21,060 nt of DNA, taken from IMG/VR virus record IMGVR_UViG_3300017917_001146, positions 1 through 21,060 of that record; one strand, given 5' to 3'. Below the pieces are notes generated by a model. That model searched no databases. It was not told the DNA's origin and saw only the letters and a list, made by a program, of their open reading frames with translations. This document shows positions 2,641-19,047 of this stretch, piece by piece (the first letter of the stretch is position 1; each line of letters begins with the position of its first letter). Both the position numbers and the translations under genes were made by a program. The DNA comes from a virus.

Positions 2641-3276
2641 ATGGCATACACTCGTGGTACATCGACCAACATTATCGTTGGTGCAGCCGCTCTCTTTGTT
2701 GCAGATTCAACATTGACAGCAGGCACACTTCCTGCGTTTACATCAACAGAATCATACAGAGATACACTTTCTGATGACGGAGATTTTACAAACGTAGGTT
2801 ACACCATGAACGGTCTTGAATTGCAGTTCCAACCAGACTTCGGTGAAGTTCAGGTAGACCAAATTCTTGACGTTGCTAAACTTTATAAGCAAGGTATGCA
2901 AGTAAATCTTGCTACTGCTTTTGCTGAGGCTACCCTTGAGAATCTTCTCTTGGCTCTTGCTTATAGCAACAGTGAACTAACAGGAACAAAGTCATCTTCA
3001 GCAGGACAAGTTCTCAATCTCTCCGCAGGAGACATTGGAGAATGTCCAGTTGAGCGTGGTATTGTTGCTGTTGGACCTGGAACTGGAGACTGCGAAGACT
3101 CTGCATACGTAGAACGTGTTTACGCTGCGTACCGTGCACTCTCAATTGAGAATGTAACTGTATCTGCAAAGCGTGATGAACCTTCCATGTTTGAAGTTTC
3201 CTTCCGTCTTCTCCCAGAAGATACATCAGGATCCTACGGTAAGATCGTAGATCGCACCTGGACACCTGCATCATAA
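2641..3276 (+). CDS. Major tail (tube) protein
   Basis: A 211-residue protein that most likely polymerises as rings to form the tail tube around the tape measure. Position (after the terminator, before the chaperones and tape measure), length and beta-rich character fit the tube family. The N-terminus MAYTRGTSTNIIVGAAALFV is followed by acidic loops, a central helix-rich piece (LENLLLALAYSNSEL) and C-terminal strands (SMFEVSFRLLPED). It differs from its neighbours in codon use: arginine is mostly CGT/CGC, and C-ending codons (TTC, TAC, AAC) are frequent, whereas flanking genes prefer AGA/AGG and T/A endings. This is the usual sign of selection for high expression. It has its own putative promoter and leader, a good ribosome site and a strong terminator directly after the stop, so it looks like a monocistronic, abundantly made unit. 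The function is quite secure, though no sequence search was done. Confidence 0.8.
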   Translation: MAYTRGTSTNIIVGAAALFVADSTLTAGTLPAFTSTESYRDTLSDDGDFTNVGYTMNGLELQFQPDFGEVQVDQILDVAKLYKQGMQVNLATAFAEATLENLLLALAYSNSELTGTKSSSAGQVLNLSAGDIGECPVERGIVAVGPGTGDCEDSAYVERVYAAYRALSIENVTVSAKRDEPSMFEVSFRLLPEDTSGSYGKIVDRTWTPAS

Positions 3277-3290
3277 TCTAGTTTTAGATT

Positions 3291-3333
3291 AACGACAGCC
3301 CACCGTATAAAAGCGGTGGGCTTAGTCGTTTTA
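3291..3333 (+). terminator. Intrinsic terminator after the tail tube gene
   Basis: A long inverted repeat: AACGAC + AGCCCACCG (3291-3305), loop TATAAAAG, CGGTGGGCT (3314-3322), unpaired TA, then GTCGTT (3325-3330), followed by TTA. The inner stem is 9 bp and GC-rich; the outer 6 bp extend it across a two-base bulge. The short T tract (GTTTT, 3328-3332) is part of the outer arm. A separate perfect 6-bp AT hairpin (AATCTA/TAGATT, 3275-3290) overlaps the stop codon. This is the only strong terminator seen in the window, and it sits behind the gene expected to be transcribed most. Confidence 0.8.
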
Positions 3334-3344
3334 TGGTAGAATTG
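3327..3344 (+). promoter_or_regulatory. Putative extended -10 promoter of the long chaperone gene
   Basis: CGTTTTATGGTAGAATTG contains TG-G-TAGAAT (-10 hexamer 3337-3342) and matches 16 of 18 bases of the element at 4090-4107. Transcription would begin near 3349, one base before the ATG at 3350, so the mRNA would be leaderless. The element overlaps the 3' arm and T tract of the terminator, so termination and re-initiation are packed into about 50 bases. Confidence 0.5.
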
Positions 3345-3349
3345 TTAAA

Positions 3350-4075
3350 ATGGCTACGCAAATATATAAAACAGATAATATTGTATTATTTGATGGAACT
3401 GAATTAGAAATAACACCATTAAAAATAAAATATCTTAGAGAATTTATGAGTACCTTTGAATTAGTAAAAGGTGTCAAAAATGATGATGATGCTATATTAA
3501 TTTTATCAAAATGTGCAATGATTTGTATGAAACAATACTATCCTAAGTTATCTAAAAACTTTGAAGAATTTGAAGATAATATTGATCTTCCAACGGTATA
3601 TAAAATTATTAATATTGCTGCTGGTATAAAGGTAGATAAAGAATCAAAAGAATCTGTTAAAGACCAGGCTACAGGAAGCGGATCTACTTGGAATGATTTA
3701 GATTTAGTTAAGTTAGAATCAGAGGTATTTTTGCTGGGCATATGGAAAGACTATGAAGATTTAGAACTATCTTTATCTATGCCAGAATTAATGGTTACTC
3801 TTTCAAGCAAAAGAGAATTAGATTATGAAGAAAAGAAATTTTTAGCAGCAATACAGGGTGTAGATTTAGATGCTAGTTCCTCCGACTCTACAGGCAAACG
3901 CAGGGGACAACAAGAATGGGAAGACCTTAAAGCAAGGGTATTTAGTAAGGGTCAGGCTGCTGATGGAAATGATGTTTTGGCACTACAAGGTCCAAATGCT
4001 AAAAAAGCAGGATTTGGTATTGGCATGGGATTAGATTATGATGATATGAGAGATCCTTCTTTAATAAAATCATAA
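3350..4075 (+). CDS. Tail assembly chaperone, long form (gpGT-like)
   Basis: A 241-residue protein just upstream of the tape measure. Residues about 10-97 are paralogous to the whole core of the next gene: both share VL-x-DGT, PLKI, LR-x-FM, F-E-x-V-x-GV and DLPTVYK, with roughly 40-45% identity by eye. The remaining ~140 residues (a helical, acidic region including YEDLELSLSMPELM and SSKRELDYEEKKFL, then a Gly/Lys-rich tail) are absent from the short gene. This is the arrangement of lambda gpGT versus gpG, where the T domain binds tube subunits and the G domain binds the tape measure. Here the G and T parts are fused in one frame without a frameshift. The start is supported by N-terminal alignment with the paralogue (both begin MAT). 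No ribosome site precedes it; a leaderless start from the promoter at 3327 is inferred. Arginines are mostly AGA/AGG. Confidence 0.7.
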   Translation: MATQIYKTDNIVLFDGTELEITPLKIKYLREFMSTFELVKGVKNDDDAILILSKCAMICMKQYYPKLSKNFEEFEDNIDLPTVYKIINIAAGIKVDKESKESVKDQATGSGSTWNDLDLVKLESEVFLLGIWKDYEDLELSLSMPELMVTLSSKRELDYEEKKFLAAIQGVDLDASSSDSTGKRRGQQEWEDLKARVFSKGQAADGNDVLALQGPNAKKAGFGIGMGLDYDDMRDPSLIKS

Positions 4076-4089
4076 TTTTAAAAAATCAG

Positions 4090-4107
4090 CGTTTTATGCT
4101 ATAATTG
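4090..4107 (+). promoter_or_regulatory. Putative extended -10 promoter of the short chaperone gene
   Basis: CGTTTTATGCTATAATTG contains TG-C-TATAAT, a full-consensus extended -10 element (hexamer 4100-4105). It is nearly identical to the element at 3327-3344. Predicted transcription start is near 4112, giving a leader of about 19 bases that includes the strong ribosome site. No obvious -35 element is visible. Confidence 0.55.
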
Positions 4108-4120
4108 CATTAGCCTATAT

Positions 4121-4126
4121 AGGAGG
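4121..4126 (+). promoter_or_regulatory. Strong ribosome binding site of the short chaperone gene
   Basis: AGGAGG, four bases (AAAA) before the ATG at 4131, is a consensus Shine-Dalgarno site. It contrasts with the absence of any such site before the long paralogue at 3350. It overlaps the 10-bp palindrome CCTATATAGG (4114-4123), which could form only a 3-bp stem. Confidence 0.75.
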
Positions 4127-4130
4127 AAAA

Positions 4131-4460
4131 ATGGCAACAACAGTACATGAGGGTGAAGAACTTGTCCTTATGGATGGCACAAAAATTAATGTGAGACCGC
4201 TAAAAATCTCACTTCTACGTCCATTCATGAAGAAGTTCGAACAGGTAGCAGGGGTGGCTGAAGATAATGAGAAGTCAATGACTCTTCTTATTGAATGCGT
4301 ACAGATTGCTATGCAGCAGTACAAACCAGAACTTGCAGACATTACAAAACTAGAGGAGATTCTTGATCTTCCGACGGTATATAAAGTAATTGAAGCAGCA
4401 TCTGGAGTTAAACTTCAAGACGCAAATGCTCTATTAAATACAGTACTTGCTAACAATTAA
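4131..4460 (+). CDS. Tail assembly chaperone, short form (gpG-like)
   Basis: A 109-residue acidic, helical protein paralogous to the N-terminal domain of the preceding 241-residue gene, and lacking its C-terminal domain. Its core runs from ELVLMDGT (residues ~9-16) to LDLPTVYKVIEAASGVKL (~80-97). By analogy with lambda gpG it should bind and keep soluble the very long tape measure protein while the tube assembles, and be needed in excess over the long form. It has a consensus ribosome site and its own extended -10 element, both consistent with higher expression. No slippery heptamer was seen near the stop (end of gene reads LANN-stop), so extension into a second frame is unlikely. It ends 19 bases before the tape measure start. 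Confidence 0.7.
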   Translation: MATTVHEGEELVLMDGTKINVRPLKISLLRPFMKKFEQVAGVAEDNEKSMTLLIECVQIAMQQYKPELADITKLEEILDLPTVYKVIEAASGVKLQDANALLNTVLANN

Positions 4461-4479: not shown

Positions 4480-7400
4480 ATGGCTGACGTTAATGCTAAT
4501 ATTGGCATAAATATAGATACGTCCCAATCTTTAGCAGAGATTAAGGCTCTTCAGCGTCAGTTAGCACAACTTTATACAAGTATAAATAAAGGTAGTGCTG
4601 CTGCAGCAGCGGCTCAAAAGGGTCTTGCTACCAACTTAATGAATACCATCAATGCTGGTGGTAAGTTCTACGCCCAGATGGGCACAATTCGTACAAGTAC
4701 GGAATCATTTACTCACGCATTAGAGAAAAATAAACTCACGATGCGTGAGTATTTCCGTTTTGCAGGCGGATCTACTAGAACATTTGGAAAACTATTTAAA
4801 TCAGAATTTGACACAATTGGTAAGGTAGCCGAAGAACGTGTCAAAAAGATGCAGACACAATATATTAAGTTGGGTCGTGATGCATCTGGAGCAATGAAAG
4901 CAATATCCATAACTCCTACAACATTAAATATGAAGGATTATGGAAATCAGGTAGCAGTAGCAGCACAAAAACAAGCACTTTTAAATCAACTATTAAAGCA
5001 AGGCTCTACTAATCTTTTAAATTTTGGTAAGAATACGCAGTGGGCTGGCCGTCAGTTGATGGTTGGTTTTACAGTTCCACTAACATATTTTGGCACAGCA
5101 GCCGCTAAAACCTTCATGGATCTTGAGGCACAAGCCCTTAAATTTAAACGTGTTTATGGAGATATGTTTACAACTACGGCCCAAACAGATAAAGCACTTC
5201 AAGATGTTCAGGCTTTAGCAAAAGAATTTACTAAATATGGTGTTGCAGTTACTAAAACTATGGAAATGGCTGCTAATGCTGCTGCAATGGGTAAGACTGG
5301 TGCAGAACTTACAGCACAAGTTGCAGAAGCAACAAGGCTTGCTGTTTTGGGTAATGTTGAACAACAGCAGGCGTTAGACACTACAATTTCTTTAACAAAT
5401 GCTTTTGGATTAGAGGCAGACCAACTAGCACAAAAAATTAATTTTCTTAACTCTGTTGAAAACCAAACTGTTACAAGTATTGAAGATTTAACTATTGCTA
5501 TTCCAAAGGCTGGACCAGTTATTCAACAATTGGGAGGTAGTGTAGAAGATCTTGCATTCTTCTTAACTGCAATGCGTGAGGGTGGTATTAATGCTTCTGA
5601 ATCCGCAAACGCATTAAAATCTGGTCTTGCATCCCTTATTAATCCAACCAAAAAAGCAAGCCAGATGCTTGCTGATATGGGAATTAATATTAAAGATATT
5701 GTTGAAAGAAATAAAGGCGATCTTAAAGCAACTGTTGTTGAATTTGCACAAGCACTAGATACTCTTGCGCCACTTGAAAGAGCAAGAGCAATTGAACAGT
5801 TGTTTGGTAAATTCCAATTTGCTCGTTTATCAACACTATTCCAAAATGTTACAAAAGATGGAACACAAGCATCTAAAGTATTAAAAATGGCTGGGGCATC
5901 AGTAGAAGAACTAGCAATCTTATCGGAGAGAGAATTAAAAACAGTAGAAGATGCAGTTGGAACAAATTTTAGAGAAGCAGTAGAACAATTAAAACTTACA
6001 ATAGCCCCTATTGGAAAAGAATTTCTTAAAACAATAACACCAGTAATAAAGTTTTTTGGGACTTTATTAGAAAAATTTAATGGACTTAGTGATGGTTCTA
6101 AAAAATTTATTGTAGTATTAACAACACTTATTGGGCTTGTTGGTCCAACCTTGTTAATGACTTTTGGTTTGCTTGCAAATGGTGCAGCAAATATAATCAA
6201 GATGTTTATTTTAATGCGACAAGGATTTTTAAAACTAAGTGGAAATACTACAAATTTAGCACAACAAACACAATATATGACAACAGAGCAGCAAGAGGCT
6301 GCTATTGTTGCAGCATCTTTAAATCAGGCTCATACAAGATTAACTCAGCAATTTATTCTTGAGGCTGGAGCAGTAACTCAACTTCGTAATGCATATGTTC
6401 AGGCCACTACTGCAGCATTAAGATTTGCTGCTGCTAATCCTGGAATGATGATGCCAGGATTTAAACCTGGAATAAAAGGCGGGGGAACTGCTAAGTTTGC
6501 ATCTGGAACAAGTGAAGTTGTTGGTGGCCAGCCAGGAAAAGATTCTGTTCCATCATTACTAACTCCAGGGGAAGCAGTAATTCCAGCAGGTATTGCACAA
6601 GATGATAGATTTAAACCAATAATTGCAGCCCTAGTATCTGGAGAAATTGCAAAATATCAAGAAGGAACAAACGAAGTTACATTTGGTGGAAAGAGTTATA
6701 ATGCAAAAAGTGCAAAGGGCGCAAAAGATATACGCAATTTCTTAAACTCTTTACAGAAAAATCCAGATGGTAGTTATAACTATGTGGATCCAGAAGGTAA
6801 GTATAGTAGAAATAATATTCCTGCAGCAAGAATAGCAGAAGTTTTACAGGGAAGGGCAGATAGTAATAAGTTTGCTCTAAATGAAATCAAAGAGAAACTT
6901 TATCTTAATAAAGAAGGCGTAGATAAGCAAAAGGGGCTAACATCTGCAAAAGATGTAAAGATAAAAGAACTAAGAGATATTGGTGCTAAAGCCTATGTAA
7001 AAGAAACACAATTTTTAGAAAATGAGATAAAGAAAGCAGGAATAGCCCTTACAAGATCACAGGTTGCTGAACTAAATAGTACAGTTGCAGCACACTTAAA
7101 TCCACTTTTGACTAAAGATGTAGCAACTGGCGAAAAAATATGGGATCCAAGAAATCTCATGGCGGATAAGCAATTTGTTAATAATTATGTTCAAGGTCTT
7201 ACAAGAGATAGTAACTTATCAACATTATTAAAACTTAATGATCAAGAATTTTCTTCTGCGCTTGGAATAGATCCAAAAGATGCAAAAGAGTATAGGACAA
7301 CTTTAGAAGGAATAAAGTCTGGTCGCCATCCAACTAAACCAATGCAGGCTAAAGCACTTGCTGCCTATGCAAATTATGATTTTGCTTCAACCAAAAAACC

Positions 7401-10400
7401 TTATGCATTTTTAACTTCTAAGGCTATGGAATATAGATTATCAGAAGGTTTTTATGGTTCTAGACAAATGCCTTTCTTAGAAAAAATTAGAAAAGAACAA
7501 GTTGCTGCTGGTAAATATAAGAAAACAACTAAATGGGATAAGGCTGAATTAAGAAATGTTGGTGGAAAGATTTTAGCCTTCAAGGGTGAAAGAATTATAG
7601 ACAGGGCTGGCAGAGTTATTGGAAGCATAACTGGACAGAATACTAAAGCAAAAGCACAAAATCAAAGACCAACAAGTGGTGCTACAAAAGATAATAGAAT
7701 TTATAATTTAAAACCAGGTCAAGGAGTCATGCCTCCAAGATTTGCTGGAATTAAGGGTGCTGGTTTAAGATACTTACCAGGAGCAGATGACGGTATATTC
7801 CCATCTACTCCAGGCGCAGGAATTAAAACTGGAGCAGTATCTCCAGGTATGCGCCGTCAACAATCTCAAATGGATGATTTAACTGGAGCAATAAAAGAAA
7901 ATACACAGTCACAAAATGACGGAACAGAAACACAAGAAAAAACAACTAAGCAATTAAGACAAGAAAGAATGGAAAAAGTATCTAGGGTTGCAGGCCCTAC
8001 TGCCATGGCTGCTGGAACTGCTGCTATGGCTGCTGGTATGGCTGGTGCAGATCCTAAGATTACAAATGGACTGTTTGCAATATCTGCAATTGCAGGCCTA
8101 TTGCCACTATTAACTAATCCATTAGGAATAGCAGTTGCTGCTGCTGCAGCGTTTGGTATTGCTATTTGGAAGATGACATCAAATCTTAATAAGGCAAAAG
8201 AAGAGGGTATTGCACTTGCTAAATCAATGACCATGACTAATCAAAAACTAGTAGAACTTTCTAAGATAACTGGAACAGTTAGTGCTACAGAGGCAGCAAA
8301 ACTTAAAAGACAAAATATTTTAACAGGAGCATCTGGAGTACAAAGAAAAACTGGACAAAATATTCTTGAAAGTCAATTTGGTCAAAACTTAGTAAAAGAT
8401 ATAGAAAAACAACAAAAAACTGGAGCAACAAATGAGCAAGTTGCTAAAAGTATAGGAACTGGATTATCTACTGCAATTATGCAAGGTGTTCTTACTACAG
8501 AACAGGCAAGAAGTCTTGCTGCCGCACTTGGAGAAAAACTTGGAAACTATGATATACCAGCAAAAATTAGTGGAACAATTGTAAACTTAGTTGGTCCAAA
8601 TGGAGAAAGATTAGAAAATCAACCATTACAAGTTGCTCTTGAAATTAAAAAACAATCAATGGAACAGCAAGCAAAAATGTTCCAAAATGCAATTTCTCAA
8701 AGAAAGAGCAATACTGGACAAAATATGATGGGTGCTGCAGCAGGAGCATTAATAGGTGGAGGACTTGTTACTGCCAATCCAGTAGCAATTGCTGGAGGCG
8801 CTGCTCTTGGAGCCGCTGCAATTATACAAGGAAATAAAATAAAAGCAGAAAATCTTAAACTTGATACAGCAGCAATTCAACTTGGATTTGAAGCGGTAGC
8901 ACAGGGACAAGGACTTGTTGATTCACTAAATAAACAATATGATAATAAAATTAAACAAGCAAAAACTGATAAAGAAATTGGACAACTTGAAGCAGAACGA
9001 AAGGCTGCAATTGATGCAGTAAATGCAGAAAATGCAAAAACTCTTGATTTATTAATAAAGCAAAAAGATCAGTTTACCCCTGGAGCGTTTGATGCAGCAA
9101 TTAAGGCTGCTGCAGACACAATGTACAAAGAAGGTCCAATGGCGGTATTTAAAGATCAAGCCATTGAATCATTAAAAGGTTTAGAGAATAGTAAGTTTAA
9201 GACAACACTTCAATTAGGTCTTGCATCTGGAGATATGGATCCAAACCAAATTATTTCTTTGATTAATATGGCTAAGGATAATCCAGAAATAAAAACTAAT
9301 ATTAATGCCATTATAGAAACACAAGGGTTGGCAGAAGCAAATGTTCTTATTGGTTTATTGGAAAGATCTGGAGCAAATCAACAAACATATGAAATTATTA
9401 CAAAATTTGTTAAAGAAAATCCACAACAATTTAAAGATATTCAAGATGCAGTATCTCAATTAAGTAATATTTTACCAAAATATGGTGTTACTGTAGATAT
9501 TAATACTGTTGGATTAAAACAACTTCAACAAATTAATAGAATCACAAGTATTCTTAAAAATGAAAAAGGTCCTATAACACAAGAGATTATTGCAAAATAT
9601 GCAAAAGACCCTAACAATCCAGATCAGGCAGTATTTCAGGGAATATTAGATACATGGCAAACACTTGTTGGATCAGATAAAACTATTACGAAAGAAATGA
9701 TTATAGATTTTGGAGCCACATATTCTGATCCAAATGTTAAAAATTTCTTTGATGCATCTAAAGGTCTTTCTAATGTTCCAGAACATATAAAGGATTTGGC
9801 TGGAGGAACTGCTGCACAATCTAGTGCATATTTGGTTGGAAAGGGTACTGGAAGTCAAAGTCAAACTAATAAAAAAACAACAACTACCACTACGGACACT
9901 ACTAAAGAAAGAGATACCACTCTTGATGAATTACTAAAGAGATTAAAATTTATTCGCAAAGCATCAATAAATGCTGAGGGTGGAATAAATCAATTAATGA
10001 AGATAACTGGAGGAAAGGGCCTTACTAAGTTCGGTGGAGTAATTCAACAATTGGTAGAAGGACCAAAGGGTGGCTTCAATAGAGAGTTTATTTCATTCCT
10101 TGAGTCAATGGACAATAAGACTCGTAAAACATATATGACCGTCAAAGATGGACAGGTAATATTAACAAAACAAGGTAAAGCATTAAAAGAAGCATTTAAT
10201 GAAAAAGTAATTGGAGAATATCAAGTTGCACAAGTTCAGGCAAAACAGGATACTATAGCACAAGGTGCTGCCCTTGCTAAACTTCAATCTGCTGGAGTAG
10301 ACACTGCTACTGCACTAGAAATGGTAGCAGATGCAAACCTTGCTGTTGCAATAAACAGTAAAGATATTTCTTCTACCGAACTTGTGAATATGGCCAATAG

Positions 10401-13191
10401 AGCCAAGGAAGCAAAAGATGCGGTAGAACAACTTAACTTGGCACTAAAACAACAGTCAATTGACTCAGATAAACAACTTGCTGATTCAAAAACTACTTTA
10501 GATGTACTTACTAAGATTAGACAGATTCAACCAAATGTTTCTCAAGAAATTATGGATTATATTGCATCTAATCCAGCATTTGCTAAATCTTTAGCAGACG
10601 CATTTAAAGGTGCATCAAATAATCTTACAGAAATACAAAATATTATAAATAATATTCCAGAACAAAAGAAAATTAATATTCAAGTTGCTTTACAGCAAAA
10701 TCCAATTGCTGAATTAGAAAGACAACTTGGCGGTATTGGTGAAAAAATGTCTCAATACTTTAGTGCTAAAAGAAATATTATTTCTAAACCATTCTTAGAT
10801 CAAATTGCCCCTATAGATAAAAGAATAAGCGGTCTTAATAGACAAATTATTGGTGCAGAAATTAATTTAAATAATGCTAAAAAAGCACTTCAACCATTTG
10901 AAACACAAATTGCTGGAATAGAATCTGAAATTGCTAAAAAGAGACTTGACATTGAGACTGGTATTGAACAAGAAATAAAAGCACAATCTAATAAAGTAGA
11001 AAATATTAGAAAACAAATTGAAAATCAATTTGATAAAACAATTTCAAATCTAGAAGATGCTGTAAAGTCAAGACAAAGAGATATTGAGTTAAGGTTTGAT
11101 AGGCCATTAGAAGTTCTACAAGAACAATCATCAGATCTATCTAATGAACTTACATTAATGGATAGAGTTGTTGATGGTATAAACAAAAAATATGATGCAC
11201 AGGCTGAGGCTTTAAATAAAGTTTCAGAAATTAATGCAGAGATTGCTAATCAACAAAAACAACAGTTAGGATTAGCAGAGGCACTAAGTAGTGGAGATAT
11301 TGCTGCTGCTGCAAGGGCTGCAGAAGAAATGAGGGCATCATCAGCAGAGGCTGCTGCTGGTAGGGCTGGAGGGGTATTAGAAGCAGCACGTCAGGCAGAA
11401 ATTGATGCAGTTAGATCACAGAGTGGATTAACTAGACTTCAAATTGAAGAAAAACAATTCCAGATTAGTCAACAAATGTTTGCTCTTGAAGAGCAAAAAG
11501 AGGCTGCAAGTTTAGCAATTCGTGATATTGAAGATCAAATATATAATCTTCAAGAAGCAAGAGCAGCCATGGTTAAAAATGTTCTTGTTCCAGAAGAAGA
11601 AAAACTTGCTAAACTTGAAAATGACAGAGCGTTAAAACTTGAAGAAATAGAAAAACTAGAACTTGATATTCTTAAAATTAAGCAGTCTCCAGAATATAAA
11701 AAAGCAATTGCAGATGTTGAGGCTGCAGAAAAAGCACTTGATGCTTTACAACAACAACTTAGAGATGCAGAACTAGAGAAGTCAAAGATTGAAGCGGCTA
11801 TGGCTGCTGCCCTTGAAGATTTAGATAAGCAACAGAAAAATTGGGAAGATATTCAGACTGGCATTGATAATGCAAAAGGTTCAATGGTAAACTATAATGC
11901 CGAACTTGATAAGGCCAAAAAGATAGCAAAGGATTTACAAGATTATATTCTTGGCATTGGAGATTCAGATGCAGCATTTACTTTACCAAAAACAAATCCT
12001 ATTGTTGGACAGCAAACACCTGGCCTAGATGAATATGGTCTAGATCCTAAAGATCCAGACTATATGGAAAAACGTAGAGCAAGACAAGGGTTTAATAGCG
12101 CTACCCCTGTTGGAACTGCTGCAGGCACAACTGGAAATAAAGTTACCTTGGCAAAACAACTAGCAGATGCTACAAAATTAGTTGCAGATAGTACTCAAAA
12201 GGTAAAAGATCTTGAAGCAGAAATTCAAAAACTAAAATCACTTTCTTTAACAGACACAGGAAAAGTTAAAGATATACAAACTGAAATATATAATTTAGAG
12301 GCAAAACGTGCTCTTGAAGTAGAAAAAATAAAAACATATATTCAAGATATATTACCAATATTGATTCAAGAAAAAGATCTATCAATATTACTAAATGATA
12401 ATTTTGCTAAGACTTCTATTTCAACAAACCAAATATTAGAATATGTAAATAATATAGTAAAGGTATTGCCAACAAAACTTTCATTATGGACTCAGATTAA
12501 GGCTGCCATAGATGGAGCAGTTACTTCAATTCAGTCATATGTCTCAGGACTGCAATCTGCTTTGTCTACCGCACAAGCAATACTATCAACTATTCTTTCA
12601 CTAAATAGAACTGTTACTACAACTCATATAATTCAAACTATATATCAATCTTCAGGACAAACAGGACCTACTGGACCAACTGGGCCAACAACACCAAATA
12701 CTCCAACTACTCCAACAACTCCAAACTTAAATAATCCTATTTTTTCACAAGCAGTTATGTATGGTGGAAAAATTAGACCAATGTCATATGGTGGAAGAGT
12801 CGGTTCTGATTTTGTTCCTGCACTATTAACACCAGGAGAGTTTATAGTAAATAGATCAGCAGCAACATCATTTGCTCCATTTTTAAATGCAATAAATGAT
12901 AGTAAATATCCTTCACTTCTTGCTAAAAAAATAACAGAGCCACAGTATACACAAGGTCTTGTTTCTCAATCATTTACTCAACCAATATATAATGTTTCAA
13001 GCCCAACTCTTGTTTCTACCCCTGTTCAGTCGTCTGTAAACTCAGTGAATGACAACTCTAGTACAGTGTATAATTATAGTGTAGGAATTACTGTAGGCGG
13101 TACAAATGCTAGTGCTGATAGTATTGCTAAGGCAGTTCTTAATGAGATTAAATATATTGATTCACAAAGAATTAGAGGGCAAAGGTCATAA
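4480..13191 (+). CDS. Tape measure protein (TP901 family), 2903 residues
   Basis: This protein fills the tail tube, sets its length, and is ejected ahead of the DNA. Residues about 183-500 match the TP901 tape-measure core (WAGRQLMVGFTVPLTYFG, then AMREGGINASESANAL-type helices). Hydrophobic stretches lie at about 540-580, 1197-1232 and 1417-1450. An LTPGEAVIPAG segment at ~693 is flanked by two related AK[F/Y]-x2-GT-[S/N]-EV-x2-GG units (~670, ~723). Residues ~730-1100 look like a separate globular domain that I do not recognise. A Thr-rich linker sits near 1796. A long charged coiled coil spans ~2088-2483. A collagen-like run (GPTGPTGPTTPNTPTTPTTP) is at ~2729, and a second LTPGEF segment at ~2782. 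The C-terminus (ASADSIAKAVLNEI to the end) is typical of tape measures. At 0.15-0.175 nm per residue the tail would be about 435-510 nm. The first ~225 codons use CGT for arginine, later ones mostly AGA. The stop overlaps the next ATG by one base. Confidence 0.92.
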   Translation: MADVNANIGINIDTSQSLAEIKALQRQLAQLYTSINKGSAAAAAAQKGLATNLMNTINAGGKFYAQMGTIRTSTESFTHALEKNKLTMREYFRFAGGSTRTFGKLFKSEFDTIGKVAEERVKKMQTQYIKLGRDASGAMKAISITPTTLNMKDYGNQVAVAAQKQALLNQLLKQGSTNLLNFGKNTQWAGRQLMVGFTVPLTYFGTAAAKTFMDLEAQALKFKRVYGDMFTTTAQTDKALQDVQALAKEFTKYGVAVTKTMEMAANAAAMGKTGAELTAQVAEATRLAVLGNVEQQQALDTTISLTNAFGLEADQLAQKINFLNSVENQTVTSIEDLTIAIPKAGPVIQQLGGSVEDLAFFLTAMREGGINASESANALKSGLASLINPTKKASQMLADMGINIKDIVERNKGDLKATVVEFAQALDTLAPLERARAIEQLFGKFQFARLSTLFQNVTKDGTQASKVLKMAGASVEELAILSERELKTVEDAVGTNFREAVEQLKLTIAPIGKEFLKTITPVIKFFGTLLEKFNGLSDGSKKFIVVLTTLIGLVGPTLLMTFGLLANGAANIIKMFILMRQGFLKLSGNTTNLAQQTQYMTTEQQEAAIVAASLNQAHTRLTQQFILEAGAVTQLRNAYVQATTAALRFAAANPGMMMPGFKPGIKGGGTAKFASGTSEVVGGQPGKDSVPSLLTPGEAVIPAGIAQDDRFKPIIAALVSGEIAKYQEGTNEVTFGGKSYNAKSAKGAKDIRNFLNSLQKNPDGSYNYVDPEGKYSRNNIPAARIAEVLQGRADSNKFALNEIKEKLYLNKEGVDKQKGLTSAKDVKIKELRDIGAKAYVKETQFLENEIKKAGIALTRSQVAELNSTVAAHLNPLLTKDVATGEKIWDPRNLMADKQFVNNYVQGLTRDSNLSTLLKLNDQEFSSALGIDPKDAKEYRTTLEGIKSGRHPTKPMQAKALAAYANYDFASTKKPYAFLTSKAMEYRLSEGFYGSRQMPFLEKIRKEQVAAGKYKKTTKWDKAELRNVGGKILAFKGERIIDRAGRVIGSITGQNTKAKAQNQRPTSGATKDNRIYNLKPGQGVMPPRFAGIKGAGLRYLPGADDGIFPSTPGAGIKTGAVSPGMRRQQSQMDDLTGAIKENTQSQNDGTETQEKTTKQLRQERMEKVSRVAGPTAMAAGTAAMAAGMAGADPKITNGLFAISAIAGLLPLLTNPLGIAVAAAAAFGIAIWKMTSNLNKAKEEGIALAKSMTMTNQKLVELSKITGTVSATEAAKLKRQNILTGASGVQRKTGQNILESQFGQNLVKDIEKQQKTGATNEQVAKSIGTGLSTAIMQGVLTTEQARSLAAALGEKLGNYDIPAKISGTIVNLVGPNGERLENQPLQVALEIKKQSMEQQAKMFQNAISQRKSNTGQNMMGAAAGALIGGGLVTANPVAIAGGAALGAAAIIQGNKIKAENLKLDTAAIQLGFEAVAQGQGLVDSLNKQYDNKIKQAKTDKEIGQLEAERKAAIDAVNAENAKTLDLLIKQKDQFTPGAFDAAIKAAADTMYKEGPMAVFKDQAIESLKGLENSKFKTTLQLGLASGDMDPNQIISLINMAKDNPEIKTNINAIIETQGLAEANVLIGLLERSGANQQTYEIITKFVKENPQQFKDIQDAVSQLSNILPKYGVTVDINTVGLKQLQQINRITSILKNEKGPITQEIIAKYAKDPNNPDQAVFQGILDTWQTLVGSDKTITKEMIIDFGATYSDPNVKNFFDASKGLSNVPEHIKDLAGGTAAQSSAYLVGKGTGSQSQTNKKTTTTTTDTTKERDTTLDELLKRLKFIRKASINAEGGINQLMKITGGKGLTKFGGVIQQLVEGPKGGFNREFISFLESMDNKTRKTYMTVKDGQVILTKQGKALKEAFNEKVIGEYQVAQVQAKQDTIAQGAALAKLQSAGVDTATALEMVADANLAVAINSKDISSTELVNMANRAKEAKDAVEQLNLALKQQSIDSDKQLADSKTTLDVLTKIRQIQPNVSQEIMDYIASNPAFAKSLADAFKGASNNLTEIQNIINNIPEQKKINIQVALQQNPIAELERQLGGIGEKMSQYFSAKRNIISKPFLDQIAPIDKRISGLNRQIIGAEINLNNAKKALQPFETQIAGIESEIAKKRLDIETGIEQEIKAQSNKVENIRKQIENQFDKTISNLEDAVKSRQRDIELRFDRPLEVLQEQSSDLSNELTLMDRVVDGINKKYDAQAEALNKVSEINAEIANQQKQQLGLAEALSSGDIAAAARAAEEMRASSAEAAAGRAGGVLEAARQAEIDAVRSQSGLTRLQIEEKQFQISQQMFALEEQKEAASLAIRDIEDQIYNLQEARAAMVKNVLVPEEEKLAKLENDRALKLEEIEKLELDILKIKQSPEYKKAIADVEAAEKALDALQQQLRDAELEKSKIEAAMAAALEDLDKQQKNWEDIQTGIDNAKGSMVNYNAELDKAKKIAKDLQDYILGIGDSDAAFTLPKTNPIVGQQTPGLDEYGLDPKDPDYMEKRRARQGFNSATPVGTAAGTTGNKVTLAKQLADATKLVADSTQKVKDLEAEIQKLKSLSLTDTGKVKDIQTEIYNLEAKRALEVEKIKTYIQDILPILIQEKDLSILLNDNFAKTSISTNQILEYVNNIVKVLPTKLSLWTQIKAAIDGAVTSIQSYVSGLQSALSTAQAILSTILSLNRTVTTTHIIQTIYQSSGQTGPTGPTGPTTPNTPTTPTTPNLNNPIFSQAVMYGGKIRPMSYGGRVGSDFVPALLTPGEFIVNRSAATSFAPFLNAINDSKYPSLLAKKITEPQYTQGLVSQSFTQPIYNVSSPTLVSTPVQSSVNSVNDNSSTVYNYSVGITVGGTNASADSIAKAVLNEIKYIDSQRIRGQRS

Positions 13192-16800: not shown

Positions 16801-18140
16801 ATCAAAATGTAAGCATAGGAGGGGGGTCTGGAGGTATTGCCGTACTGTTAAATCCAGAAACAAATAATGGTTATTATTTTGAAATAGTTGCACTTACTGA
16901 AACAAATATAGAGTCATATCTAAAATTAGATAAAAATGGACAAGCAGAAGTTAATATAAACAATGTTGTATTTTATAAAGTTAAAAAAGATTCTGCTAAC
17001 AATAATGCAATACCAGTTAAACTTTGGGGTGGTATAACAAATATTATTGTTGACGATGGTAGATTTACTGGTCAATATAGAATGGCTGGAGAAGAAAAAC
17101 CAACGGTATATGATTTATCAGTAGAATATCAAGACATTGGTAAAACAAGAAGGTTCTATCTATATATAAATAATAAACTAATAAAAATAGTAGATGATAC
17201 AGACCCACTACCAATTTATAATAATATGGCTTTATTTGTTAGAGGTTCTTCAAGATGTATGTTTGAAAATGTTTATGCCCTATCAGAAAACTATGCTCAA
17301 AATACAGTGTTTACTGTAGGTAAAACATTATCAGATGTATTCGGTGATAAGTCTATTGACGCAAATGAATCTTTTAGAAAATATGCAATGAGTGGAATAA
17401 TTCAAGGAACCTATCTATCTGGCATTAGTTCTGAGCAACCACCAAAATATAATATGTATTTTGATGAGTTTGGAACTATTATGAGAGAATGTGCATATTT
17501 TGATATTAGATATGATCGTGCATACCCCGCATTATATGCACAATTATCGCCAACATTTAATCGTATCAAAGGATATACTGTTTCTGGATTCCAGGCTGAC
17601 TCGTATGGCGCTGAGTTTTTAATATTTAATTCATCAGATAAGGCTCTTGTTCTTGATGAGACTAGCGGAAATTATTTAAGAATTCAGGGTGTTTCTTTTA
17701 CACAGGACACCACACATGAATTAACTGTTGACGAATATTTTAGTAAAACAAGTAATTTATCAGATCCTCCATTTAGTGGAAGTTCGTTAGTTTATTCTCC
17801 TTTAGTAGAAAAAGCAAAATATGATGATATTAAACTAAGCAGAATAATATATGGAAATAATGGTTTTAGTTTAGATACACCATATATTCAGACACAAGAT
17901 GACGCCGATGCTCTAATGGGATGGATAATAAATAAAGTGATGGTTCCTAAAAAATCTATTGGTGTAAACTCTTTTGCTATACCAACTCTTCAATTAGGAG
18001 ATATAGTTACAATTGATTATAAAGATGAAAATAATTTAAATTTAGTTGCAAATAGTACAGATAGATTTGTAATTTATAATATAGAATATTCTAGAAATAA
18101 CAATGGTCCATCAATGACTTTGTATTTGAGTGAGGTGTAA
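13830..18140 (+). CDS. Tail hub / tail-associated protein with inserted lectin-like domain
   Basis: A 1,436-residue protein, probably the central hub of the tail tip (Tal/gp27-like). The N-terminus (ETSATVRLKSLVTAEINMNM, ~11-30) and the segment with DLIEISPRLVIDLSDKT (~392-408) look like hub folds known in actinophage minor tail proteins. Residues ~510-600 carry a SLSMAISTILDYVGF helix and an AEVLNQLAISTQSAMFFDEY element, as in gp44/gp27-type hubs. The final ~70 residues (PTLQLGDIVTIDY, then strands ending MTLYLSEV) look like the closing half of a hub barrel. Between them, about 930-1157, lies a beta-rich block with NGYYFEIVAL, RRFYLYINNKLIKIVDD and ALFVRGSSRCMFENVYAL, the pattern of a concanavalin/LamG-like sandwich, which suggests surface-sugar binding. 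The ribosome site GGAAGAGGT ends four bases before the ATG, and the gene follows the previous stop without a gap. Peptidase motifs were not recognised. Confidence 0.65.
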   Translation: MFVNEALKTHFETSATVRLKSLVTAEINMNMPDNIFKVGNYRYRTATPGSNYYNLPNTFDNLDSGNYYTGATDADVVVDNGFTNSGIPQQFTLKKDKMKMIYSLEDCLKPFRPRSGINKPLYFSGKYLANSGASLAQRPRYYMPSRYDQFRYWTSYRTENNIEYGVSNKVSNGLNYIEDAVPFVVYKNQVPANRIIVKVQTNTGSVDLGPFTTQTGSLSDPLYGEANKTTPSRWKIQYLVNNNWTDAITFNENSTRSDGSPIIGSDGYVEIQYGLIVPDIYKDIFIFAETLSSSTLLPEKSITGYSYLVVENEGEIGTFYIWTGSEYATFVPNYGWSLGSETVSALTNFVTDLTNPEQFTDTIAGATTYREFAYIQGIRVVAETMNKFDCTLDLIEISPRLVIDLSDKTIDYKITKIMSDIGITSLPVGQLLASTGSINIFDDDQAFNSNNTNSIVSGYLRKNIKFNFYEIIMNVDGFDYYVPIKTLYSEGIPQADVTAGTVSIGLRDFYFFFESMPAPRLLMTQTSLSMAISTILDYVGFTNYSFKRITGENDPIIPYFFVAPDQNVAEVLNQLAISTQSAMFFDEYNNFIVMSKDYIMPTSTNRATDFILSGSNNQTDTGVIQNQTSGNLPNILSISSEDKKIYNDGRINYTTRYIQRSYGSIREASMIDKDKTWIYKPVLLWEVAGDEATKTINEVASKQGNYVLGAMPINSDLSLELPTVINGVVTNNTIDLGENVYWLTRYQGYLYSNGEIIKYDAAEFNITGTGNVWISSNQEYQKYFASLPFNGKIYPTGLIRIFSTPYYETIDGITRLQPGAVYQHGRGQFGTPVTTHTAGINSYWSDNTYVRGCNMQTQYLFTTLLDEDVTRPSTTTGAAGVDNILARQTTRNSVIKNFMSTKYLTETAVNSLNSTQTGTIQSSALVMNGPSFKTTETPLNFVSYVYKNLDGAYKNFGTRMRIIGKIENNETRGQTPIGSSAYYQVNGVQPNQNVSIGGGSGGIAVLLNPETNNGYYFEIVALTETNIESYLKLDKNGQAEVNINNVVFYKVKKDSANNNAIPVKLWGGITNIIVDDGRFTGQYRMAGEEKPTVYDLSVEYQDIGKTRRFYLYINNKLIKIVDDTDPLPIYNNMALFVRGSSRCMFENVYALSENYAQNTVFTVGKTLSDVFGDKSIDANESFRKYAMSGIIQGTYLSGISSEQPPKYNMYFDEFGTIMRECAYFDIRYDRAYPALYAQLSPTFNRIKGYTVSGFQADSYGAEFLIFNSSDKALVLDETSGNYLRIQGVSFTQDTTHELTVDEYFSKTSNLSDPPFSGSSLVYSPLVEKAKYDDIKLSRIIYGNNGFSLDTPYIQTQDDADALMGWIINKVMVPKKSIGVNSFAIPTLQLGDIVTIDYKDENNLNLVANSTDRFVIYNIEYSRNNNGPSMTLYLSEV
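18132..18137 (+). promoter_or_regulatory. Ribosome binding site that decides the 18142 start
   Basis: GAGGTG lies four bases before ATG 18142. A GTG at 18130 is in frame and would add four residues, but the site lies inside those codons and nothing suitable lies ahead of it, so the ATG is preferred. Confidence 0.6.
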
Positions 18141-18141
18141 T

Positions 18142-19047
18142 ATGCCGTTTTATCCTATGTATAATAATGAACTAGTTCTTGATAATGAATTTGGTGCACT
18201 TGATAATGAAACATTAAAAATTCTTTCTGCAGCAAAAGCAGAAGAAGATAAAAGATCTTCTATGTCTACAAAGCAAAGAGCAGAACAAGATATTATTGAT
18301 AGTTTGAAAGATCAGGCAGAAGCACAAAGGGCTATTGCTGATGCAATTAAGGCACAGCAGGAAGCACAGGCGGCACTTGCTGCTGCACAAAAAGCAAAGG
18401 CAGATGCAGAAGCAGAAGCACGTAGAAAGGCTGCAGAAGAAGAAGCACGTAGAAAAGCAGAAGAAGAGGCACGTAGGAGGGCAGAAGAAGAGGCACGTAG
18501 AAAACAAAACGATAGATATGATACAAACTATGGAACATCAGTTTCTTCAACACCTGCTACCCCATCAACAATATCCTCTAAGCCATCAAATATTAGTCCA
18601 GTTACTCAAACTCCTCCACCACCCCCTGTTAAGACAGCGCCTATAGATACTATTCTTTTTGATAATGATACTGTTCCAATAGAGATAATGGCAGATCTTA
18701 TTTTTGAAAATATTGGTGGACAGGAATTAATTAATATTGCTAGAAATGACACAGTAAATGGTCAACAAATAATTTATCAGCCAATTAAAAATTTAACACA
18801 AATACAACAAGAATATAACCCTAATAATATTGTTGCTCTTCAGGCAACCTCAGATAAATACTTTCAAAATTTTGCTATAAAGTTTGATAGTAAGGTACCA
18901 GAAGAAGGAACTGGTGAAAATGGAGCACATGTTTATATAGATCCAGAAACTGGGTCTTTAGTTATTGAAGCCATTAATTTAGATTCAGATGAACAGATAG
19001 AATTAGAAATCAGCACAAGTGGTACAATATATGAGGCGGAAATATGA
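18142..19047 (+). CDS. Tail tip protein with TolA-like charged helix
   Basis: A 301-residue protein of unrecognised function, coded among tail-tip genes. It has three parts. Residues ~30-122 are an uninterrupted Ala/Glu/Lys/Arg/Gln-rich helix, ending in tandem ARRKAEEE units, that resembles the coiled-coil arm of TolA. Residues ~125-170 are a Ser/Thr/Pro linker with a run of five prolines. Residues ~175-301 form an acidic globular domain including IGGQELINIARNDTVNGQ, a YFQNFAIKF strand and the acidic C-terminal LVIEAINLDSDEQIELEIS. The layout suggests an extended stalk joining a tail-bound head to an exposed domain, but this is inference. The short N-terminus (MPFYPMYNNELVLDNEFG) could be the docking peptide. 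The stop overlaps the next start as ATGA. There is no signal peptide or membrane segment. Confidence 0.55.
   Translation: MPFYPMYNNELVLDNEFGALDNETLKILSAAKAEEDKRSSMSTKQRAEQDIIDSLKDQAEAQRAIADAIKAQQEAQAALAAAQKAKADAEAEARRKAAEEEARRKAEEEARRRAEEEARRKQNDRYDTNYGTSVSSTPATPSTISSKPSNISPVTQTPPPPPVKTAPIDTILFDNDTVPIEIMADLIFENIGGQELINIARNDTVNGQQIIYQPIKNLTQIQQEYNPNNIVALQATSDKYFQNFAIKFDSKVPEEGTGENGAHVYIDPETGSLVIEAINLDSDEQIELEISTSGTIYEAEI
18418..18504 (+). repeat. In-gene tandem repeat, 24-base units
   Basis: Three units plus a partial fourth: 18418-18444 (27 bases, one extra GAA-type codon), 18445-18468, 18469-18492 and 18493-18504. Each begins GCACGTAG and codes for ARR[K/R]A with trailing glutamates. Units differ by a few substitutions, and unit length differs by whole codons, so the frame is kept. 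Such an array can change copy number by slippage and would alter stalk length in 8-residue steps. Confidence 0.8.

Follow-up and report, generated by a model that had tools for sequence, protein, structure and literature searches.

The window analysed here, a stretch of 21,060 nt from a water-borne bacterial virus (IMG/VR record IMGVR_UViG_3300017917_001146), very likely encodes a G-like and a GT-like tail assembly chaperone of a tailed phage in two genes, a duplication having replaced −1 frameshifting and expression now setting the excess of G. In phage lambda, G coats the tape measure protein and the T part of GT recruits the tube protein, and the programmed −1 frameshift that yields G and GT is conserved in long-tailed phages. 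Lambda-type frameshifting produces G in ~30-fold excess over GT (PMC5009743). As in lambda, the window specifies a short core protein and a long core-plus-T protein, encoded between the tube and tape measure genes, with the long form expected to be the minor one; unlike lambda, it has two separate genes and no slippery site, and the ratio of the products would come from promoters and initiation signals.

Both ORFs of the original prediction exist as claimed (Table) and sit between the tube protein and tape measure genes. Synteny comparison showed that the tube gene occupies the position of the annotated major tail protein of Stanwilliamsviridae, and the order of genes at the tape measure gene is identical to that in annotated Stanwilliamsviridae genomes. 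The homologous core of the two proteins, noted by eye at ~87 residues, extends in BLASTP over 96 residues, 42 of them identical (44%); because the E value is 2e-27, this resemblance is not due to chance. The PLKI and DLPTVYK motifs were found in both proteins, as predicted. The short product matches the N-terminal part of the long product by homology, not identity, which is what would be expected of paralogues.

Table. Features of the tail assembly chaperone region of the window (positions are those of the window)
Feature	Position	Strand	Remarks
Major tail (tube) protein gene	2641..3276	+	syntenic anchor; phrog_2175, E 5e-34; phrog_885 major tail protein, E 0.005
Intrinsic terminator-like hairpin	3297..3322	+	between tube gene and long gene
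Extended −10 TGGTAGAAT	3334..3342	+	ends 7 nt before ATG; predicted leaderless promoter of long gene
Long gene (GT-like, 241 aa)	3350..4075	+	G-type core, residues 1-98; T-type domain from ~residue 109; single frame
Predicted promoter of short gene	4077..4105	+	TTTAAA-17-TATAAT with TG extension; TGCTATAAT at 4097-4105
Shine-Dalgarno AGGAGG of short gene	4121..4126	+	
Short gene (G-like, 109 aa)	4131..4460	+	core only, without T domain or slippery heptamer
Tape measure protein gene (2903 aa)	4480..13191	+	directly 3' of short gene

Elsewhere in the window, the tape measure protein contains two similar motifs ~2090 residues apart, LTPGEAVIP and LTPGEFIVN (6559-6585 and 12826-12852), and a collagen-like GQTGPTGPTGPTTP run near its C-terminus (12655-12696). 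Further downstream, the ORF called from GTG 18130 overlaps the preceding gene, and the in-frame ATG at 18142 is the likelier start (18130-18147).

Profile searches matched the cores of both proteins to phrog_10504, while the extra C-terminal domain ascribed to the long protein proved to match a separate family of its own, phrog_10474 (E 2e-14). Matches were also obtained to 15 of the 46 members of the tail assembly chaperone family phrog_1932 (best E 3e-4), and the homologues in Streptomyces phages are annotated as tail assembly chaperones (E ~4e-18 for the short protein). Pfam yielded a chaperone match for neither window protein, and a search of the PDB by sequence profile gave no relevant match. 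The predicted structure of the short protein (pLDDT 76) has as its best PDB match the HK97 tail assembly chaperone 2OB9, although weakly (TM 0.45, E 0.83); in BFVD, the top match goes by the name of tail assembly chaperone (TM 0.76, E 4e-7). The model of the long protein, of modest confidence (pLDDT 69), had no match in the PDB fold search.

The ancestral-type arrangement is displayed by Stanwilliamsviridae, Streptomyces phages in which the interval from the major tail protein gene to the tape measure gene contains a single core ORF, carrying the annotation tail assembly chaperone, and after it an ORF in the −1 frame. The −1 frame opens right at a slippery heptamer, which is C CCA AAT in Loccivirinae and C CCG GAA in Boydwoodruffvirinae, and in Emma1919 the chaperone is annotated as a joined frameshift gene. 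The single-gene form was also found in at least 39 distinct IMG/VR contigs, whose heptamer is mostly G GGA AAC, with CCCAAAC, CCCAAAT and GGGAAAT as further versions. Among the 50 distinct single-gene loci made up by Stanwilliamsviridae and 39 IMG/VR contigs, 45 have a canonical XXXYYYZ at the frame change, near the G stop (GGGAAAC occurring 31 times), and the −1 ORF has a median length of 130 codons (n = 50). These phages (e.g. Samistivirus and Gilsonvirus) and the IMG/VR sister clade share with the window homologues of both domains and their synteny; they differ in having a single gene whose T lies in the −1 frame, one leadered promoter and a slip site (CCCAAAT, CCCGGAA or GGGAAAC), of which the window genes carry none.

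The two-gene form, an in-frame core-plus-T gene followed by a core-only gene, was found in the window and in at least 109 other distinct contigs, these counts being of contigs listed from the best 80 loci per IMG/VR query and not of natural abundance. Two of the sequences are irregular: a ~34 bp tandem duplication breaks the T domain of the long gene in L130 (4560-4660), which may be an assembly error or real, and the core of the long gene shifts frame near the contig start in L234 (1-260), probably through an assembly error. The two-gene form was not seen among the annotated phages matching the long protein with E values of 1 or less (127 Streptomyces phages and five Rhodococcus phages), and the Streptomyces phages inspected have the single-gene form.

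Direct comparison of the two forms identifies the C-terminal domain of the long protein as T: rather than being unrelated to any T domain, it is homologous to the −1 frame ORF of the frameshifting relatives. In tblastn against Streptomyces phages, the long protein aligns in two pieces that cover the core and the −1 frame T ORF. On reading the sequences, the residues GSGSTWNDLDL at its joint line up with SDGSGSTWKELDL, encoded in the −1 frame of phage Ankus, and the tail of the short protein, SGVKLQDANALLNTVLANN, aligns with the zero-frame G end GGVKLNDPNLLAMAAEALGKN. A heptamer combined with a long −1 ORF where G ends, the signature of a programmed −1 frameshift, is found in the sister contigs and in neither window gene. 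No in-frame XXXYYYZ heptamer is present in either gene, in agreement with the original observation of none by the stop of the short gene, and 3' of that gene the −1 frame shuts within ~8 codons and the +1 frame also shuts quickly. Residual frameshifting in the short gene of the window was ruled out on these grounds, namely the missing heptamer and the −1 frame of ~8 codons.

Since a tree of T domains left the placement of the frameshift contigs unsettled, a concatenated tree of 61 rows and 855 columns was built from three proteins: the tube protein, the tape measure protein (N-terminus) and another protein of the tail module. The 37 contigs chosen to represent the two-gene form all fall into one clade in this tree (97/95; 98% of bootstraps), adjoined by 22 single-gene contigs, with the Streptomyces phages as outgroup; the switch therefore probably happened once. 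In a tree of the cores, a single clade (SH-aLRT 96) contains all 86 from long genes, and those of the single-gene form group with the slower-evolving short cores. The simplest history would be one duplication with the frameshift form ancestral. The originally proposed history, in which a frameshifted gene was duplicated, one copy joined G to T in a single frame and the other lost T, is upheld by the frameshifting relatives, the homology of T to the −1 ORF and the single-origin tree. The short copy may have arisen either by tandem duplication of the whole gene or by insertion of a copy of the core.

The DNA around DLPTVYK had been put forward as a trace of that duplication. The identity itself is as described, 20 of 21 nucleotides between 3584-3604 and 4365-4385, but its reading as a relic of recent duplication was ruled out, as the same 21-nt stretch matches at a median of 15 positions between long and short genes across 92 two-gene contigs, with no excess at the codon level (codons for the same residue are identical at a fraction of 0.43 inside the stretch vs 0.50 in the rest of the core). 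The 20/21 match is most likely a chance resemblance peculiar to the window genome.

The two genes carry contrasting control signals, which were compared with those of control genes taken from the same loci. A hairpin followed by a T-run precedes the long gene in 100 of the 110 two-gene contigs listed vs 17 of 300 control genes. After the hairpin comes a −10 element whose end lies 6-9 nt from the ATG. In 103 of the 110 long genes listed vs 5 of 740 control genes, the motif TGnTAnnnT precedes the ATG by 5-9 nt, the remaining seven long genes having a −10 without TG; a full TATAAT is present in 7 of the 103, and a Shine-Dalgarno match of at least 4 nt is absent from all 110 long genes. Such spacing of the −10 predicts a leaderless mRNA. 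The nearest named relatives of the window phage infect Streptomyces and Rhodococcus, and in actinobacteria, mycobacteria for example, leaderless mRNAs are described as common (PMC3898074, PMC5741613). Leaderless translation would then be carried out by the host of the window phage; a search of bacterial genomes for a prophage or other host clue found no relative.

In contrast, a leadered extended −10 lies 25-38 nt before the ATG in 110 of the 110 short genes listed vs 22 of 740 control genes, with an exact TATAAT 5' of 105 of the 110 and a Shine-Dalgarno match of at least 4 nt in all 110. In this the single-gene contigs resemble the short gene, 48 of 50 having the leadered −10 and 50 of 50 the Shine-Dalgarno match. 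A terminator-like hairpin occurs between the long and short genes in 1 of 110 contigs; because no terminator separates the two genes, G may also be read from the transcript of the long gene. No terminator was seen between the short gene and the tape measure gene in the window. At 33 of the 50 single-gene loci (seen in contigs L057-L062 and L157-L254), TGnTATAAT or TGTATAAT lies no more than 60 nt past the T stop and is a putative promoter of the tape measure gene itself; the equivalent after the short gene was found in 0 of 107 two-gene contigs. The predicted promoter of the short gene in the two-gene contigs occupies the equivalent place, after the stop of the T domain.

Codon usage and selection distinguish the two genes further. 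Measured against the tube gene of the same contig, codon adaptation averages 0.62 for the short gene and 0.50 for the long core, and in 80 of 82 contigs the short gene exceeds the long core (p 7e-15). The short genes are adapted like the major tail protein gene and the long genes are not, and in single-gene phages the frameshifted T region is less adapted than G. This pattern agrees with the long product being rare and the short one abundant. Purifying selection acts on all parts, the median dN/dS being 0.26 for the long core, 0.09 for its T domain and 0.11 for the short gene. The long core diverges faster (mean identity 58%) than the T domain of the same protein and than the short protein (72% each), as if part of the contacts required by the abundant G alone had been given up.

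The data presented above have led us to propose a model in which an ancestral phage would have made both products from a single gene through −1 ribosomal frameshifting. In the ancestor of a large environmental phage clade, one duplication, supported by the comparison of the two forms, would have produced an upstream copy that became an in-frame G+T fusion and a downstream copy that kept G alone, the slippery site being lost along with T. Expression, not recoding, would then set the excess of G over GT: GT would be read as a leaderless mRNA from a weak promoter, and G would have its own strong extended −10 promoter, a Shine-Dalgarno leader and well-adapted codons. G would coat the tape measure protein and the T part of GT would recruit the tube protein, as in lambda. 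That promoter and initiation strength took over from frameshifting in providing the excess of G is our best reading. We also lean, with less assurance, toward a clade-wide dual initiation in which the conserved pairing of a weak leaderless GT mRNA with a strong Shine-Dalgarno G mRNA sets the assembly ratio.

Three other explanations bear on this model. The short or the long gene might still frameshift, the second gene being an accessory paralogue, and the −1 frameshift layout is indeed that of all close relatives outside the two-gene clade, with some XXXYYYZ present in the relevant zone of 17 of the 110 long and 19 of the 110 short genes listed. These heptamers, however, are a minority and mixed in type, whereas most single-gene phages have a fixed GGGAAAC; those near the stop of the short gene (e.g. 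TTTAAAT, 19 of 110) come without a long −1 frame, which closes at a median of 9 codons among the 110 two-gene contigs listed, and neither window gene has a heptamer at all. Hidden recoding is, in our judgment, very improbable. That the ratio is instead set by translation, through Shine-Dalgarno and codons on one shared transcript, the −10 elements not being working promoters, is unlikely but deserves the most weight of the three: the two genes are far apart in Shine-Dalgarno strength and codon bias alone, and a consensus match to a −10 is no proof of function. Against it stand the fixed spacing of the −10 in 103 of 110 long and 110 of 110 short genes vs 5 and 22 of 740 control genes, and the terminator-like hairpin that 100 of 110 contigs have 5' of the long gene.

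It is likewise doubtful, to a slightly greater degree, that the long protein has another role, such as a dedicated adaptor, instead of being the minor GT partner, with the short protein alone acting as chaperone. The faster evolution of the long core (dN/dS 0.26 vs 0.11; mean identity 58% vs 72%) means that it may have lost oligomerisation contacts; yet none of the 110 two-gene contigs examined lacks the long gene, whose T domain is homologous to the T of the frameshifting phages and under strong purifying selection. A G-like and a GT-like chaperone produced from separate genes remains the preferred explanation.

The two-gene solution, originally described as an unusual one, has a reported precedent. 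Some T4-like phages are reported to have a short and a fused long chaperone gene and no frameshift (Vladimirov, Gautam and Davidson 2022, as described in PMC10885494), so the solution is not a first. By that description, on which the comparison rests, the window has the same arrangement of an in-frame fusion as the long gene and a short gene apart from it; the T4-like phages belong to a different lineage from the window phage. The two ORFs of Microbacterium cluster EA phages are not described in PMC7302621 as a short and a full-length fusion form, unlike those of the window. What appears to be new is the origin of the arrangement in another lineage, with a living frameshifting sister clade and a conserved contrast between leaderless and Shine-Dalgarno initiation.

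Annotation tools that seek a slippery site would miss or misname two-gene chaperones of this kind. Close sister phages on each side of the change, from a frameshift to duplication with divergent promoters, offer a clear before-and-after comparison and make it testable whether tail assembly needs the frameshift itself or only two products in the right ratio. The conserved pairing suggests that leaderless vs Shine-Dalgarno initiation may serve these phages as a setter of stoichiometry.
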